This document shows, piece by piece, positions 15,046 to 40,562 of a stretch of DNA of 64,000 nt. Made by a program: the position numbers and the translations under genes. This DNA comes from Acidobacteriota bacterium (GTDB lineage Bacteria > Acidobacteriota > Terriglobia > Acidiferrales > UBA7541): contig PLUM01000014.1 of NCBI GenBank assembly GCA_003165465.1, forward strand, positions 63,999-127,998, given 5' to 3'. Numbering within the stretch: position 1 is the stretch's first letter; every line of letters begins with the position of its first letter. The notes under the pieces are model-generated. The model was not told the DNA's origin and did not search any database. It worked only from the letters and a program-made list of their open reading frames with translations.

Positions 15046-15119
15046 TGGAGGCGCGGGGCGGGATCGAACCGCCGATAAAGGTTTTGCAGACCTTTGCCTT
15101 ACCACTTGGCGACCGCGCC
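15046..15119 (-). tRNA. tRNA-Cys (GCA)
   Basis: The minus strand folds as a tRNA: acceptor GGCGCGG/CCGCGCC, the D-arm with GCCAAGTGGTAAGGC, an anticodon arm AAGGTCTGCAAAACCTT with anticodon GCA, and a T-arm GGCGGTTCGATCCCGCC. The discriminator base is U73, an identity element of tRNA-Cys, and CCA is encoded at 15046-15048. Length is 74 nt with CCA and there is no long variable arm. Confidence 0.97.
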
Positions 15120-15252: not shown

Positions 15253-18200
15253 TTAGAACGAGATCTTCAGTCCGATTTGGACTTCCCGAGCATCACCCGA
15301 ACCTACGACCGGGTTCCCGGCAACGACGTCGGGTGTTCCCAGCGCGCCGCCGAATACTGAACTGTTAACTGTCGTCGGTACCCCACCCACACTGATCGTC
15401 GTGGGATTTACCGCCGAGGGGTCGTTGTTTCCGCCGCTGGAGCCATTGGATGCACCGTATGGATTCTCTGGAATGGGGTGGTTGAAGATGTTGAATACCT
15501 CAAGCCTCAATTGGGCTGTAAACCGTTCCTTGAACGTGAAGTTCTTGAAAACGGAGAGGTCCAGGTTCCGGAAACCTGAGTCACGGAAAATGTTCCGGCC
15601 CATCGTACCAAATGTTCCCGCGACGGGAGGAGTCATAACCGAGTTGCCGTTTGCGTAGCAGCCACCTGCCGCAAGGGTAGAGGCGTCAGGAGCCTTGGCT
15701 ACGCAATTCGCGGCATAAGTGGCTGTTTGGGAGGCCGAAACCAACGAGGTCTGTTGAGACTGGCCGTCATACGTCGTGCAGTTAACGCCGGAAGTACCGC
15801 CCCCGGAGGGAAAGCCGTAGCAGTAGGGGACACCATTCGCGGTGCCCTTGAAGTCGGACGGGTTCCCGAAGAAATCCCATCGATCCGTGGAGTCGCCAGC
15901 GCCGCTGAAGTTGTTATTATAGTCGTTCACGAGCCAGGGCTGGGAACTCTGGAGGGTGACGATGCCGTTAACCTGCCATCCCTTAAACGCCTGAGCGAAA
16001 CCGTTGATTCCTGGAATGTTGTAAGTCCCGGTCAGTGTCAAACGGTGACGAACGTCAAAGTCGCTGTTTCCGTATTCTGCTCCTGGATTGACGGAATTCT
16101 GAGGAATGAGCCCGAAACGATTCAGGGAACCGTTGTCGAGGCCATGGGCATAAGTGTATCCGGCCGTGAAAGACACCCCGTGAGACATGCGCTTGGTCAG
16201 GGTCGCCTGCAGGCTGTTGTAGTTAGAATGCGTGTCGTTCGTCATCACGTTAATGTATTGAAAGTAGGGGAATTTGGAAGCGTAGGGACGAACGCAGGAA
16301 CCCGAACTAGGAGCGCACGCGTTGACATCGGCGAAACCAGTTAATCTTGAGCCGGTGTTGCCTACGTAACCAATCTCCAACGACATGTTGTTGCCGAAGG
16401 CGTGTGTGACGCCAAGGTTGTAATTCGTGACGTACGGCGTTTTGAGATTCGGGTCCACTCCCATGATGGAACACGGACCCGGGTTTGTCCCAACGCTATC
16501 CCCGCACTTAATTTGCGCGCTCTTCGGGAAGACCGTTGTTTGGGTTCCTGGCGTCACGGACGTAGCACACGTCGAGACGACAGCCGGATCCCAGCAGAGT
16601 TGGTTTGCGTTATAAGCGTAGGGAGCGACGGCGATTGAACCTGTACCGTTTACGACCGAGGCACCCGCAAAGAACGTGGCCGCCGTCGGGTCGCCAGCGA
16701 GGCTGACGCTCGAACTATTCTGGAATTGATTCTGGTTCATCCATTCGACGGAGGTGAAAGACGAATACATGACGCTGAAGCCGCCTCGGACCACGGTCGT
16801 CCCCTTGCCGTTCACGTCATACGCGAAACCTAAGCGGGGTGACAAGTTGCCTCGATTGGGATTCCACATGGTATTTTCGCCTGGCTGACCCTGCTGGACG
16901 AGCCCCGTTGCTGAGTTCGGGTCGAAGTTGCCCCAGAGGTTATTGGCCTCTTTAATCGGTGAAGCGTATTCGTAGCGCAAGCCCAAATTGAGCGTAAACT
17001 TCGGGGTCAGGCGCCAGTCATCCTGAACGAACCCTGCCATGTACGTATTGAGCATTCTGCGGGTGGGGTCGCCGACCAAGGCCTTTCCAGCTGCACCGGA
17101 TTTTGTTTTCATGTTTCCCGTAAAAAAGCCGGGGAGGCTAGCAAAATTTATCCGGCCCCGGCCATAATCCGGGATGTAGGAGTCGGCCTCGATGTTCGTA
17201 TACTCGCCGCCGAACTTCAGACTGTGTTTGCCCACCAGGTAAGAAAAACTGTCCTGAACGTCCCAGTAGGGGTTTGGGGCAATCGCCTGAGGTCGGTTGT
17301 GCCAGGTGCCATAAAGGGCAAAACCACCAATTTCGAGGGTGGGAAGTCCGGGTACGGTCAAGCCCGTGTTGACACCAGGAATTGAGGCACCGGCATCGGC
17401 GCTGGTCGTCAGGAAGGTCATGCGGTTGTAGCCGAACCGCACCTCATTCACCATATTGGAGTTAGGGGTGTAATCCCAGGTGCCGGAGGTGCTCCACGTG
17501 TAGATATCAAAACCGTTCGAGAAGAGCTGGTTGATAAAAGCGCGATCCTCACCATTCCCGATGTAGTTGCCGATGAGCAGCATTCCATTGAGGGTGTTCT
17601 TGTTGTTGATGTGATAGTCGATTTTTGCCAAGCCGTTGTGGCTATTATTAATATTCGGAATGGTGCTGACGTAGCCGGTATTGGTAAGGGAAGGGTCACT
17701 CGGGAAAAGGCCGCCCGTGCATGTAGCCGTTGCGGTAGGAGCCGCCCCGGTGACAGTGCAGCCTGCCACTGTCTCACTGACCACGCTAGGGATTCCGCCG
17801 CCGTTTACCACGGACGCGAGCGCGGCCGCGAAACTTGTCGCCGGAGTCGCTCCGACTGAAGACCCAGTCTGGGGAACGCCGCCGGTTGCGGCAAACGAAT
17901 TGCCGATCAAATCAGCCAAGGCCTCGTAGTTGCCAAAGAAGAAGAGTTTGTCCTTGATGATCGGGCCGCCCAAGGAAGCGCCATACTGCTTCAACTGCGT
18001 CGCCGGTTTGTCGCAACTCGTCACCGGGCAAACTCCGTCTGAAGCCGCGGGGTTGAAGTAGTTGCGGGCGTCCCAGTTGGAGCTGCGGTAGAAGCCGTAT
18101 GCCGTGCCGTGCAGGGAGTTCGTTCCGGACCGGATTCCGACGTTCACCACAGCGCCGGGATCCCATCCGTATTCGGCCTTGGGATTTTCCATCAGATTGA

Positions 18201-18903
18201 ATTCCTGAATGGAGTCGATCGGCAGGATCGTCGCGCCGTCCGTGATCGGACTGGGCATGCCTGCGATGGGCCGGGCGTCAAAGAAATTGTGGTTGATGAC
18301 GCCGTCGATCATCCAGACGGACTCATCGGGCCGGACGCCGTTGGTGCTCTGGGTCCAAGGCCCGCCACCGACCTGAGTCATGACGCCGGGGCGCAGACCC
18401 AAAAGATTTTGGTAGTTGCGGCCATTCAAGGGCATGTCGACGATGTCGGCGTTATCCAGCGTGCCGCCCAATGTCGCGTTCGTCGTTTCGACCAGGGGAA
18501 TGGCTTCGGTGACGGTTACCGTCTGAGTTTGTTCGCCGGGCTGAACGGTCAGGTCGACGCGTATTTCCTTGCCGACTTCGAGCACTATATTTTGCCGCTC
18601 GATTTTCTTAAAGCCTTTGGCTTCGGCGCGAACCACATAGCTGCCGGGCGTGAGGTTCGGGGCGTTGTACTCGCCGGCATCGTCCGTGGTCAGTGTGCGC
18701 GATACGCCGCGCGCCGTGTCCACGACGGTGACCGTGGCGCCGCCTACAACTCCGCCCGTCTGGTCCGTGACCGTCCCAAGAATACGGCCTGCATTGCCCT
18801 GAGAAAAGGCCGGAACGCAGATCATCAGCAATGCAAGCATGCCACATAGCAGCCGCGCCGCTCGTCCGCCCCAGGATTTCTTACTCGTCGTTAATGGAGT
18901 CAT
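15253..18903 (-). CDS. TonB-dependent receptor, Oar-like, with N-terminal regulatory-like domain (paralogue 1)
   Basis: The protein has 1216 residues and is an outer-membrane barrel. After a signal peptide (LLCGMLALLMICVPAFSQ) comes a carboxypeptidase-regulatory-like beta-sandwich, GRILGTVTDQTGGVVGGATV to VDLTVQPGEQTQTV, then a plug (LVETTNATLGGTL, DMPLNGRNYQNLLGLRPGV) and a long barrel ending in the aromatic C-terminus VQIGLKISF. Such receptors are thought to take up large glycans or peptides with TonB-ExbBD energy. I chose the ATG at 18903, preceded by GAGAGG six bases upstream; the paralogue has the same layout. It is monocistronic, with a long leader upstream and a terminator after the stop. 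Its substrate is not readable. Confidence 0.93.
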   Translation of the reverse strand: MTPLTTSKKSWGGRAARLLCGMLALLMICVPAFSQGNAGRILGTVTDQTGGVVGGATVTVVDTARGVSRTLTTDDAGEYNAPNLTPGSYVVRAEAKGFKKIERQNIVLEVGKEIRVDLTVQPGEQTQTVTVTEAIPLVETTNATLGGTLDNADIVDMPLNGRNYQNLLGLRPGVMTQVGGGPWTQSTNGVRPDESVWMIDGVINHNFFDARPIAGMPSPITDGATILPIDSIQEFNLMENPKAEYGWDPGAVVNVGIRSGTNSLHGTAYGFYRSSNWDARNYFNPAASDGVCPVTSCDKPATQLKQYGASLGGPIIKDKLFFFGNYEALADLIGNSFAATGGVPQTGSSVGATPATSFAAALASVVNGGGIPSVVSETVAGCTVTGAAPTATATCTGGLFPSDPSLTNTGYVSTIPNINNSHNGLAKIDYHINNKNTLNGMLLIGNYIGNGEDRAFINQLFSNGFDIYTWSTSGTWDYTPNSNMVNEVRFGYNRMTFLTTSADAGASIPGVNTGLTVPGLPTLEIGGFALYGTWHNRPQAIAPNPYWDVQDSFSYLVGKHSLKFGGEYTNIEADSYIPDYGRGRINFASLPGFFTGNMKTKSGAAGKALVGDPTRRMLNTYMAGFVQDDWRLTPKFTLNLGLRYEYASPIKEANNLWGNFDPNSATGLVQQGQPGENTMWNPNRGNLSPRLGFAYDVNGKGTTVVRGGFSVMYSSFTSVEWMNQNQFQNSSSVSLAGDPTAATFFAGASVVNGTGSIAVAPYAYNANQLCWDPAVVSTCATSVTPGTQTTVFPKSAQIKCGDSVGTNPGPCSIMGVDPNLKTPYVTNYNLGVTHAFGNNMSLEIGYVGNTGSRLTGFADVNACAPSSGSCVRPYASKFPYFQYINVMTNDTHSNYNSLQATLTKRMSHGVSFTAGYTYAHGLDNGSLNRFGLIPQNSVNPGAEYGNSDFDVRHRLTLTGTYNIPGINGFAQAFKGWQVNGIVTLQSSQPWLVNDYNNNFSGAGDSTDRWDFFGNPSDFKGTANGVPYCYGFPSGGGTSGVNCTTYDGQSQQTSLVSASQTATYAANCVAKAPDASTLAAGGCYANGNSVMTPPVAGTFGTMGRNIFRDSGFRNLDLSVFKNFTFKERFTAQLRLEVFNIFNHPIPENPYGASNGSSGGNNDPSAVNPTTISVGGVPTTVNSSVFGGALGTPDVVAGNPVVGSGDAREVQIGLKISF

Positions 18904-19482: not shown

Positions 19483-23103
<3,621 letters not shown>

Positions 23104-23172
23104 GCCACACAGCAGTTACGCCGTCCTCCCGCACCAAACACCCGATCCACTCTTCGAATCTAAAGAACTCAT
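23104..23172 (-). other. original 5' end of TonB receptor gene 2, with in-frame TAA
   Basis: From ATG 23172 the frame encodes MSSLDSKSGSGVWCGRTA, then TAA (23116-23118), then LLCG, joined in frame to the main open frame at 23103. The pattern lines up with MTPLTTSKKSWGGRAARLLCG of paralogue 1. GAGAGG lies six bases before the ATG in both genes, so this is the ancestral start. Confidence 0.75.
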
Positions 23173-23613
23173 TCCGCACCTCTCACTAATCAAGGATTTA
23201 CCTCTGAATCGGACAACAACCCCCTACCCTTTACAGCCACAACCGCTCGCACGCGAAAAACACAGCCGAGAACGTCCGGCCTGACGATACGAGCACTTAC
23301 GGAACTTTTCCAAGCCTGCCATTTGACTCTGGCAACACTGATAACGGGTCCTCGGAACATTTGCAGCAAAAACAGTGCGATAAAAACAGGCTAAAACTGC
23401 GAACAGCACTTCACTCGATCAATCCCAATTTGTTTGGCGGAAATTCCGTGTCAGGGGCATCCACTTTCGCCAAACAGCACCGCTAAAATCGAACGGGGCA
23501 AGGCAATTCCGCAGAAGCCTCTTTCACAATTTGGCTCAGATAAACCGATCCACAGCACCCCTACCAACCCAAATGATGCAAGATGTTAGTTCCACGGGGT
23601 TTATCAAGTCAAG
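23173..23613 (-). promoter_or_regulatory. long leader and promoter region of TonB receptor gene 2
   Basis: About 440 bp without a gene. It carries the same conserved blocks as the leader of paralogue 1: CTTGACTTGAT then ACCCCGTGGAA on the minus strand (about 23590-23614), and a block near 23455-23500 reading GTTCGATTTTAGCG. The two leaders differ in length by about 90 bp but keep the order of blocks. A copied promoter and 5' leader is the simplest explanation. Confidence 0.5.
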
Positions 23614-23720: not shown

Positions 23721-23907
23721 AGTCCCGCCAGGGGCGACAGAACGTAGCCCACCGCTTGATTGGTGGCCATGTGAAAAGACACAAAAAAATAAGCCCCGGA
23801 GGGGCGACACATGGCCACCATGTACCGCCCCTCCGGGGCTGTCCAAAATCGCGCCACATTTCCCCACCGTTTCCACCGTGGGCTACGTTAAACGTCCCTA
23901 CGGGACT
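23721..23907. repeat. nested palindromic element, family B (copy B1)
   Basis: About 187 bp of nested inverted repeats. The outer arms run AGTCCCGCCAGGGGCGAC and CGTCCCTACGGGACT; inside them are AACGTAGCCCACC and GGTGGGCTACGTT; in the centre are AGCCCCGGAGGGGCG and CGCCCCTCCGGGGCT around ACATGGCCACCATGT. The same architecture and near-equal length recur at 40378-40562. No open frame or transposase is associated. Confidence 0.88.
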
Positions 23908-23989: not shown

Positions 23990-25381
23990 TCAGACGCGGG
24001 CGTGGGATAGCGGAAGCCGAACCTGGAAGCTTGAGCCGTGGCCGAGCGAGCTACGCACTTCGATGGTCCCGGAATGGACTTCGGCAATCCAGCGGCCGAT
24101 GGAAAGGCCCAGTCCCACGCCGCCCGATTCGCGGGTGCGCGCTTTATCGGCGCGATAGAAGCGCTCAAACACGTTTGGCAGGTCCGCTTCCGCGATGCCG
24201 ATTCCGGTATCGCGCACTTCGGCCACCGCGTGGCCGCCGTCCTGCCGCAGGGACACTTCGATTTGTCCATTGGCGGGCGTGTATTTCACGGCGTTATCGA
24301 TCAGGATCAGGAACAGGCGGCGCAACATTGTCGCATCTCCCTGAATCCACACGGCGTTATCGGGAATTTGCGAATGAAAAGCGATCTGCCGGGCTTCGGC
24401 CAGAGCGCTGCCCTGATGGCAGGCCTCGCGCAGAACGTCCGCGACGTTGGTGGCCGTAAAGTGGGGCGTTTGGCCGCCGCTATCGGCGCGCGCCAGAAAC
24501 ATTAACTGTTCAATTAACCCAGATGTTTTTTCGAGTTCGGCGAGAACTTCGGCGATCACCTCGCGATATTCGCCGGCGGAGCGCGCTTTTCTAAGGGACA
24601 GTTCCGCCCGGGTGCGCATCACCGCGATGGGCGTTCGCAGTTCGTGCGAGGCGTCGGCCGTGAATTGCGTGATGCGCTTGAACGCCGCGTCCAGACGCTC
24701 GAACATGCCGTTGAGCGTTTCCGAAAGGCGCTGCAACTCGTCGTCGCTGTTCGGCACCGCGAGGCGGCTCGACAGATTTTGCGCGCTGATCGTTTGCGCC
24801 GTCCGGGCGATCTGGTCCACGGGGGCCAGCGCCCGCGCGCTGATCCAATAGCCTCCGGCGGCGGCGAACAAAAGCAGCGTGGGAATCGAGATGACGAGCA
24901 GCAGTTCGAAACGGTCCAGGGCTTCGTAGAAATCGTCCATTTCAAATGCGGATTGAATGAGGTAGGACTGGCCTCCCTCCTCGACCCTCCGGCTCCATAC
25001 GCGCAAGGGAACGGGGTTCCCCAAAAAATCGACGGGCTTGGCGGGCGGGTTCGCCGGCCGGGGAACGGCGTAATCTCTCATGGCCGTGGAGCGATACAGC
25101 CAGTTGCCCTGCGCGTCCGACACCTGCAAGAGGGCGCCGCCGGCGCGCAGTTCGGTATGATCGCGAAGCTCTTCTTCCAAATCTTCCTCGCCGCCCGGGC
25201 GGACCACTTGGGCGATGAGCTGGCGTACGCCCTCGGCGCGGATTTTGAGTTCCTCGTCGACCGTTTGGCGAATGCTGTGGCGCATTTCGACGTAGGCGCT
25301 TACGCCAAACGCGGAGAGCACCACGGCGAAGACCACGAAATACCAGGCCGTCAGGCGGAGCCGAATGGGAAGCGTCCTCAT
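23990..25381 (-). CDS. sensor histidine kinase (CusS/heavy-metal-sensor type)
   Basis: This 463-residue inner-membrane kinase has a transmembrane segment at about residues 11-31, a periplasmic sensor to about 158, a second membrane segment (LLLVISIPTLLLFAAAGGYWI), a HAMP linker, a HisKA domain with the phosphorylated His at about 246 in DASHELRTPIAV, and HATPase with N-box LILIDNAVKYTP and G-boxes DTGIGI and GVGLGLSI. All catalytic motifs are intact. It overlaps its regulator by ATGA (25378-25381). The pair is divergent from the multiheme cytochrome gene. The signal sensed is unknown. Confidence 0.92.
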   Translation of the reverse strand: MRTLPIRLRLTAWYFVVFAVVLSAFGVSAYVEMRHSIRQTVDEELKIRAEGVRQLIAQVVRPGGEEDLEEELRDHTELRAGGALLQVSDAQGNWLYRSTAMRDYAVPRPANPPAKPVDFLGNPVPLRVWSRRVEEGGQSYLIQSAFEMDDFYEALDRFELLLVISIPTLLLFAAAGGYWISARALAPVDQIARTAQTISAQNLSSRLAVPNSDDELQRLSETLNGMFERLDAAFKRITQFTADASHELRTPIAVMRTRAELSLRKARSAGEYREVIAEVLAELEKTSGLIEQLMFLARADSGGQTPHFTATNVADVLREACHQGSALAEARQIAFHSQIPDNAVWIQGDATMLRRLFLILIDNAVKYTPANGQIEVSLRQDGGHAVAEVRDTGIGIAEADLPNVFERFYRADKARTRESGGVGLGLSIGRWIAEVHSGTIEVRSSLGHGSSFQVRLPLSHARV

Positions 25382-26061
25382 ACTGTTTTCGTCGTGTCCC
25401 GCAGGGTGTATCCCGTTCCGCGAACGGTCTGGATCAGCTTCACTTTGTGGTCCCGGTCCACTTTATTGCGCAGCAGGCTGATGAAGGCGTCCAGCGTATT
25501 TTCCTCGACGTCTTCCTGCGAATCCCACACCGAATGGACAATCGTGTTTCTGGGGACGACTCGACCGGCGCGGCGCATCAGGAATTCCAGGAGGCGGAAT
25601 TCGGTCCGGCTCAGGCTAATCTCCCGGCCGGCGCGCGTAACGTCGTGCGTGGCGGGATCCAAAATTAAATCCGCAACCTGCAGCAAAGCGGGGCGCGGGG
25701 CCGAGCCGCGCCGCGCGGCCGACCGCAGCCGCGCGAGAAATTCCTCGAACGAAAACGGCTTGGTCATGTAATCGTCCGCGCCGGTGTCGAGCCCTTTGAC
25801 GACGTCGGGGATGGTGTCCCGCGCGGTAAGAATCAGGATCGGCGTTTTATTTCCAGTTTTTCGCAGACGCCGCGCGACCTCGTAGCCGTCGATCCCCGGA
25901 ATCATCAGGTCCAGCACGATGGCGTCGTATTCGAGCGCCTGCGCCATTTCGAGCGCTTCGTGGCCGTCGAATGCCAGGCTGACGGAATGGTTTTCTTCCT
26001 CCAGCCCCTTCTTGAGCAACTCCGCCATTTTCTTCTCGTCTTCCACGATAAGGACGTGCAT
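25378..26061 (-). CDS. OmpR/PhoB-family response regulator
   Basis: The protein has about 227 residues. The receiver domain has the acidic pair VEDE, the phospho-Asp at about 51 in AIVLDLMIPGIDGYEV, Thr in ILTAR and Lys in MTKPFSFEEF. The C-terminal winged helix reads LSRTEFRLLEFLMRRAGRVV and ends VRGTGYTL, the hallmark of OmpR-type DNA-binding domains. I chose ATG 26061, placed ten bases after GGAG; the ATG at 26070 sits too close to it. The likely targets are its own promoter and the divergent cytochrome gene. Confidence 0.92.
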   Translation of the reverse strand: MHVLIVEDEKKMAELLKKGLEEENHSVSLAFDGHEALEMAQALEYDAIVLDLMIPGIDGYEVARRLRKTGNKTPILILTARDTIPDVVKGLDTGADDYMTKPFSFEEFLARLRSAARRGSAPRPALLQVADLILDPATHDVTRAGREISLSRTEFRLLEFLMRRAGRVVPRNTIVHSVWDSQEDVEENTLDAFISLLRNKVDRDHKVKLIQTVRGTGYTLRDTTKTV

Positions 26062-26085
26062 CGACGACATACTCCTATCAAAACA

Positions 26086-26109
26086 CTGCAACCTGAAAAT
26101 GCGCTGAAA
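26086..26109. promoter_or_regulatory. candidate operator for the response regulator
   Basis: Two direct copies of CTGAAA start at 26093 and 26104, exactly 11 bp apart. OmpR/PhoB regulators bind direct repeats with about this spacing. The site lies in the 157-bp region between the divergent regulator and cytochrome genes. A weaker CTGCAA at 26086 precedes it. The call rests on spacing and position only. Confidence 0.4.
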
Positions 26110-26218
26110 CAGCCTGTTTATCATTCTAGGCTCTTCGCGCCGTGCAGGGAAAGAGAAGCTCTGGTAACCTACTCCGCACGCGGATCCCCAAGGGTTCCAA
26201 CCGGAGAAACAAATCGAG

Positions 26219-40253: not shown

Positions 40254-40377
40254 AACACCCTCCTCAGCGAAACCTAATTTCCATGTTCCTTACCCAACAG
40301 CCACAAACCTGGAGCCTGTTCCACCGAACATTTCGACCATCGTTCTTATCCGGCGACTTGTCGCTGTTTTGCCCAAA

Positions 40378-40562
40378 GTCCCGGAGGGACGAAACAACGT
40401 AGCCCACCGTGGAAACGGTGGGCTACGGAGCACAATATTTTGTAGCCCCGTAGGGGCGGCACACGGTTGAACCTGTGCTGCCCCTACGGGGCTTGTCTCT
40501 TTGCCATCCCGCGTACCCACCGTTTCCACGGTAGGCTACGTTGTTTCGTCCCTGACGGGACT
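40378..40562. repeat. nested palindromic element, family B (copy B2)
   Basis: About 185 bp with the architecture of 23721-23907: outer arms AGTCCCGGAGGGACGAAAC and GTTTCGTCCCTGACGGGACT; next AACGTAGCCCACCG and CGGTAGGCTACGTT; centre TAGCCCCGTAGGGGCGGC and TGCCCCTACGGGGCT. It also has a further hairpin CCCACCGTGGAAACGGTGGG. It lies between the MFS transporter and MmgE/PrpD genes. Confidence 0.9.

Follow-up and report, generated by a model that had tools for sequence, protein, structure and literature searches.

A premature stop codon at the start of an acidobacterial TonB-type receptor gene, probably a recent nonsense mutation

Does a stop codon lying 18 codons into the homologous start of an otherwise open receptor gene reflect gene decay, a control device or a flaw in the assembled sequence? 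The question is raised by a gene on the minus strand (19483..23172) of the window, i.e., the whole stretch of 64,000 nt analysed here, which lies on contig 90 of an Acidobacteriota genome assembled from metagenomic data (121 contigs, ~89% complete, 6.86% estimated contamination). In Pfam searches the product matched PF13620 (CarboxypepD_reg, E 3.8e-21) and the barrel family PF25183 (OMP_b-brl_4, E 1.2e-166); a match to PF00593 was weak and fell below its cut-off. By its reading frame and Pfam content the gene is thus classified as a TonB-type receptor of the CarboxypepD_reg (Oar-like) kind, with a predicted N-terminal PF13620 domain and an outer-membrane barrel. It is one of about 30 related receptors in the window's own genome.

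The interrupted reading frame

On the minus strand, the start region reads ...AGTGAGAGGTGCGGA, followed by ATG (23172), 17 more sense codons, TAA (23118-23116) and CTG CTG TGT GGC ATG (23103). The codons from ATG 23172 are ATG AGT TCT TTA GAT TCG AAG AGT GGA TCG GGT GTT TGG TGC GGG AGG ACG GCG TAA, and translation across the premature stop gives MSSLDSKSGSGVWCGRTA*LLCGMLALLLLCLPVYSQ. The 18-codon 5' piece, MSSLDSKSGSGVWCGRTA, together with the TAA that ends it, occupies positions 23116..23172; the TAA itself (23116..23118) is codon 19 from ATG 23172. The ribosome-binding site of the homologous start, GAGAGG (23179..23184, minus strand), is common to paralogue 1, an intact copy (15253..18903, minus strand) that aligns with 58% identity and was used for comparison. 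The start of paralogue 1 has this same GAGAGG, then MTPLTTSKKSWGGRAARLLCGMLALLMICVPAFSQ; over the premature stop it aligns as RAARLLCGMLALL against RTA*LLCGMLALL of the window gene. The TAA falls where the charged part of the signal peptide gives way to the hydrophobic one. Because homologues align on both sides of it, with start, ribosome-binding site and signal-peptide residues all matching, the premature stop is more than the chance edge of an open reading frame.

From the fallback ATG at 23103, the frame is open for 1206 codons down to the TAA at 19483 (19483..23103, minus strand), with no second stop or frameshift. The signal peptide starting at this ATG would have about 13 residues before the likely cleavage site, and no K or R. 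The initial annotation had described the TAA 18 codons into the homologous start, the GAGAGG common to both paralogues, the intact remainder and the uncharged fallback signal peptide, and all four descriptions are confirmed by the sequences.

The surroundings of the gene deserve brief mention. Upstream of the receptor, a strong hairpin of 20 pairs with a T run behind it (23793-23839, minus strand) resembles a terminator placed after the two-component genes (23990-26124). A tRNA-Cys (gca) gene lies a short way downstream of paralogue 1 (15046-15119, minus strand); two more of this type were called at other sites of the genome. Farther along the window, two matches to the Acido-Lenti-1 RNA (RF01687) are found on opposite strands, approximately 100 bases apart (40377-40422, minus; 40516-40562, plus). 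In several receptors of the subfamily, a short palindromic motif, GGAC(N)GGAGGTCC, closely precedes the ATG and is centred on the Shine-Dalgarno (SD) sequence (L007:4178-4190, L009:5102-5113, L010:1409-1421, L017:1406-1418). This palindrome occurs four times in the window's own genome, once before a receptor, and is absent from the window gene and from paralogue 1.

The stop position in homologues and the age of the change

Of the relatives found in other species, the nearest, L009 (a gene that also appears as L037, record PMOP01000273.1), is 75% identical to the window gene, and the two form sister branches in the tree (support 1.0). At its start, a ribosome-binding site precedes ATG and MNGFSSIHKATWVDRYGKAFQLLGGVFALLLLCLPAYSQ, and CAA (Gln) stands where the window has TAA. 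The corresponding codon is CAA in paralogue L002, CAG in L157, CGG (Arg) in paralogue 1 and other sense codons elsewhere; no other homologue read has a stop at this position. Likewise, when 89 N-terminal regions from the fetched loci were compared by eye (a non-exhaustive set extracted by motif, which missed locus L035, with one comparison genome per species), only the window had a stop between the start and the end of the signal peptide. Being absent from all other homologues read, the premature TAA is not a conserved control element, and a conserved upstream reading frame or regulatory leader peptide was rejected as a candidate on this basis. A recent nonsense pseudogene would have its stop where the nearest relative has a sense codon, and this stop would not be conserved among homologues; both features are seen here. 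Since the sister gene has CAA at the homologous codon, one change would explain the lesion: the simplest history is most likely a C-to-T transition converting a Gln codon, CAA, to TAA at codon 19, with CAA as the presumed ancestral codon.

The body of the gene shows no clear loss of constraint. Its dN/dS relative to L009 is 0.148 (0.09-0.23 in intact pairs), a value set largely by evolution that preceded the lesion, dS for this pair being near saturation. In a relative-rate test, the window branch was slightly longer, with chi-square below 3.9 for eight of the nine outgroups. These results are not decisive, and loss of constraint was set aside as a dating signal. A random substitution in the body would make a stop in approximately 2.65% of cases; after 100 neutral substitutions the chance of finding no second stop would be only 7%. 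Thus, either the lesion arose only recently, as a neutral clock would have it, or the gene remains in use. Altogether, ordinary constraint and the lack of a second lesion in the body fit a recent event, and the statement in the initial annotation that the lesion is recent or tolerated is supported, a single transition relative to the sister gene being enough to account for the stop.

Restart, assembly and switching as alternatives

If tolerated, the lesion might be bypassed by a restart of translation at CTG 23115 or ATG 23103, either after termination at the TAA or by way of the SD-like GGGAGG within the 18-codon piece (23125..23130, minus strand). The product would be a receptor made at a low level with a short, uncharged signal peptide. 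GGGAGG, a possible candidate restart signal, lies 9 nt upstream of CTG 23115, which itself adjoins the TAA. Its predicted pairing with the anti-SD sequence (assumed, not taken from this genome) is -10.3 kcal/mol, as strong as that of GAGAGG at the normal start (-9.5 kcal/mol), and the receptor body needed for such a product is intact. Termination-reinitiation near a stop codon is known in bacteria and established in E. coli, where SD motifs often help (PMC6728339). Among 23 homologues, the pairing at that place is strongest in the window gene. However, SD-like AGG/GGG codons occur at the same place in three others that lack any stop, and since their pairing is comparable (-8.6 to -9.3 kcal/mol), the motif may simply reflect Arg/Gly codons. 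Also against a restart, CTG serves poorly as a start codon; the predicted SD pairing at ATG 23103 is close to nil (-1.8 kcal/mol, with the same assumed anti-SD); and the signal peptides starting from CTG 23115 or ATG 23103 would be 17 or 13 residues long, with no basic residue in either. We consider a tolerated lesion of this sort unlikely. The more elaborate idea, that the early nonsense change created an 18-codon leader whose termination feeds the CTG/ATG restart so that the receptor, intact in other respects, is produced at a low and tunable level, seems to us very unlikely.

Alternatively, the TAA could be a base-calling error or a minority variant in the metagenome assembly, most cells having a sense codon. 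The number of contigs (121) and the estimated contamination (6.86%) leave room for such an error or strain mixture, as does the single base that separates TAA from the CAA of the sister gene. Isolated substitution errors are nevertheless uncommon in assembled consensus sequences, and no homopolymer is present here; we hold this explanation to be quite improbable.

The initial annotation had further suggested that the lesion could act as an on/off or readthrough control. The layout, an 18-codon reading frame with a good ribosome-binding site before a long intact frame, would suit a switch, but these 18 codons are the homologous signal-peptide start and their stop is conserved in no homologue read. 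Readthrough is unlikely because none of the 38 typed tRNAs of this ~89% complete genome has a stop anticodon (TTA, CTA or TCA) and because the receptor's own terminator, at 19483, is TAA too; suppressor-tRNA readthrough was rejected for these reasons. Two weak matches in the Rfam tRNA search were not called by ARAGORN. Phase variation was likewise discarded: no tandem repeat lies close to the premature TAA, and the sole inverted repeat, an imperfect one of 16 nt (81%) whose arms, 232 nt apart, bracket the start region (23066-23081 and 23314-23329), has a perfectly matching core of about 9 nt, such as is expected by chance in a 500-base stretch. As the segment between the arms is, in addition, collinear with homologues, there is no sign of inversion. 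A riboswitch or known RNA leader was also considered, and none was found near the site by Rfam. With the stop unique to this gene among the homologues read and broken receptors common in relatives (see below), the suggestion is not sustained: there is no positive evidence for a programmed on/off or readthrough switch, and we judge control of the receptor by readthrough, suppression, phase variation or a leader peptide to be extremely unlikely.

Probable gene decay and comparison with known systems

Judging from the frames read, receptor genes with lesions are a common finding in related genomes, and the lesions lie at varied places along the gene. In three draft genomes, in which misassembly may account for some of the splits, relatives have their coding sequence divided between frames near residue 934 (G065 C371), 770-800 (G065 C243), 522-546 (G065 C17), 501-542 (G065 C10) and 391-437 (G064 C154); G065 C84 has an internal TAA, and one TGA is reported in G066 C551. 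Locus L035 (G065:C294, minus strand) starts with MKSVTLKVDRAGKVINLLGTAVGVFLFSL; its reading then slips out of frame and meets a stop where the signal peptide ends, shortly upstream of an intact body frame of 1186 codons that begins around base 1485 of the minus strand. This is an independent signal-peptide frameshift in the same receptor family; hence, an early lesion combined with an intact body is not unique to the window.

What is directly seen is the TAA, the homologous start, the CAA in the sister gene and the intact body. On these grounds, we favour a recent nonsense mutation that has probably produced a nascent null allele, or pseudogene, of one of the approximately 30 receptor paralogues, with the attendant loss of expression and function. 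Ribosomes starting at the normal ATG 23172 would stop after 18 residues, and the downstream ATG 23103 would offer no SD sequence and an export signal of about 13 residues lacking any basic residue; because of this early stop and poor fallback start, the strain would be expected to make little or no exported receptor. Two observations count against a null allele. The fully intact body may be compatible with tolerated low expression by restart, and decay is not rampant in the window's own genome, since none of its other surveyed receptors has an internal lesion, their frames being open. Even so, ordinary gene decay is the most likely account.

The locus would thus exemplify gene decay in progress within a large acidobacterial receptor family. 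Our literature search found no paper covering Acidobacteria together with both pseudogene and TonB-dependent receptor; TonB receptors, but not pseudogenes, are mentioned in a paper on Solibacter paralogues, and a Helicobacter paper that came up had no bearing on the case. An automated annotation would be likely to report an intact receptor of 1206 residues beginning at ATG 23103 despite the broken real start region. Unless restart were demonstrated, the case would have little wider importance.

In domain order (PF13620 and PF25183), length and signal-peptide layout, the window gene resembles the CarboxypepD_reg TonB-type (Oar-like) receptors of Acidobacteriota, from which it differs by the TAA interrupting its start region. 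With termination-reinitiation (translational coupling), it shares possible restarts 0-12 nt after the stop and an SD-like motif upstream of the stop; in contrast to that system, the well-equipped restart codon here is CTG, nothing is conserved and the arrangement would originate from one point change. A nonsense pseudogene in a lineage-expanded receptor family likewise combines a single stop relative to an intact sister, an intact remainder, many paralogues and broken members in relatives, but the window lesion lies so close to the start that the entire mature protein would be preserved by a restart downstream of it.
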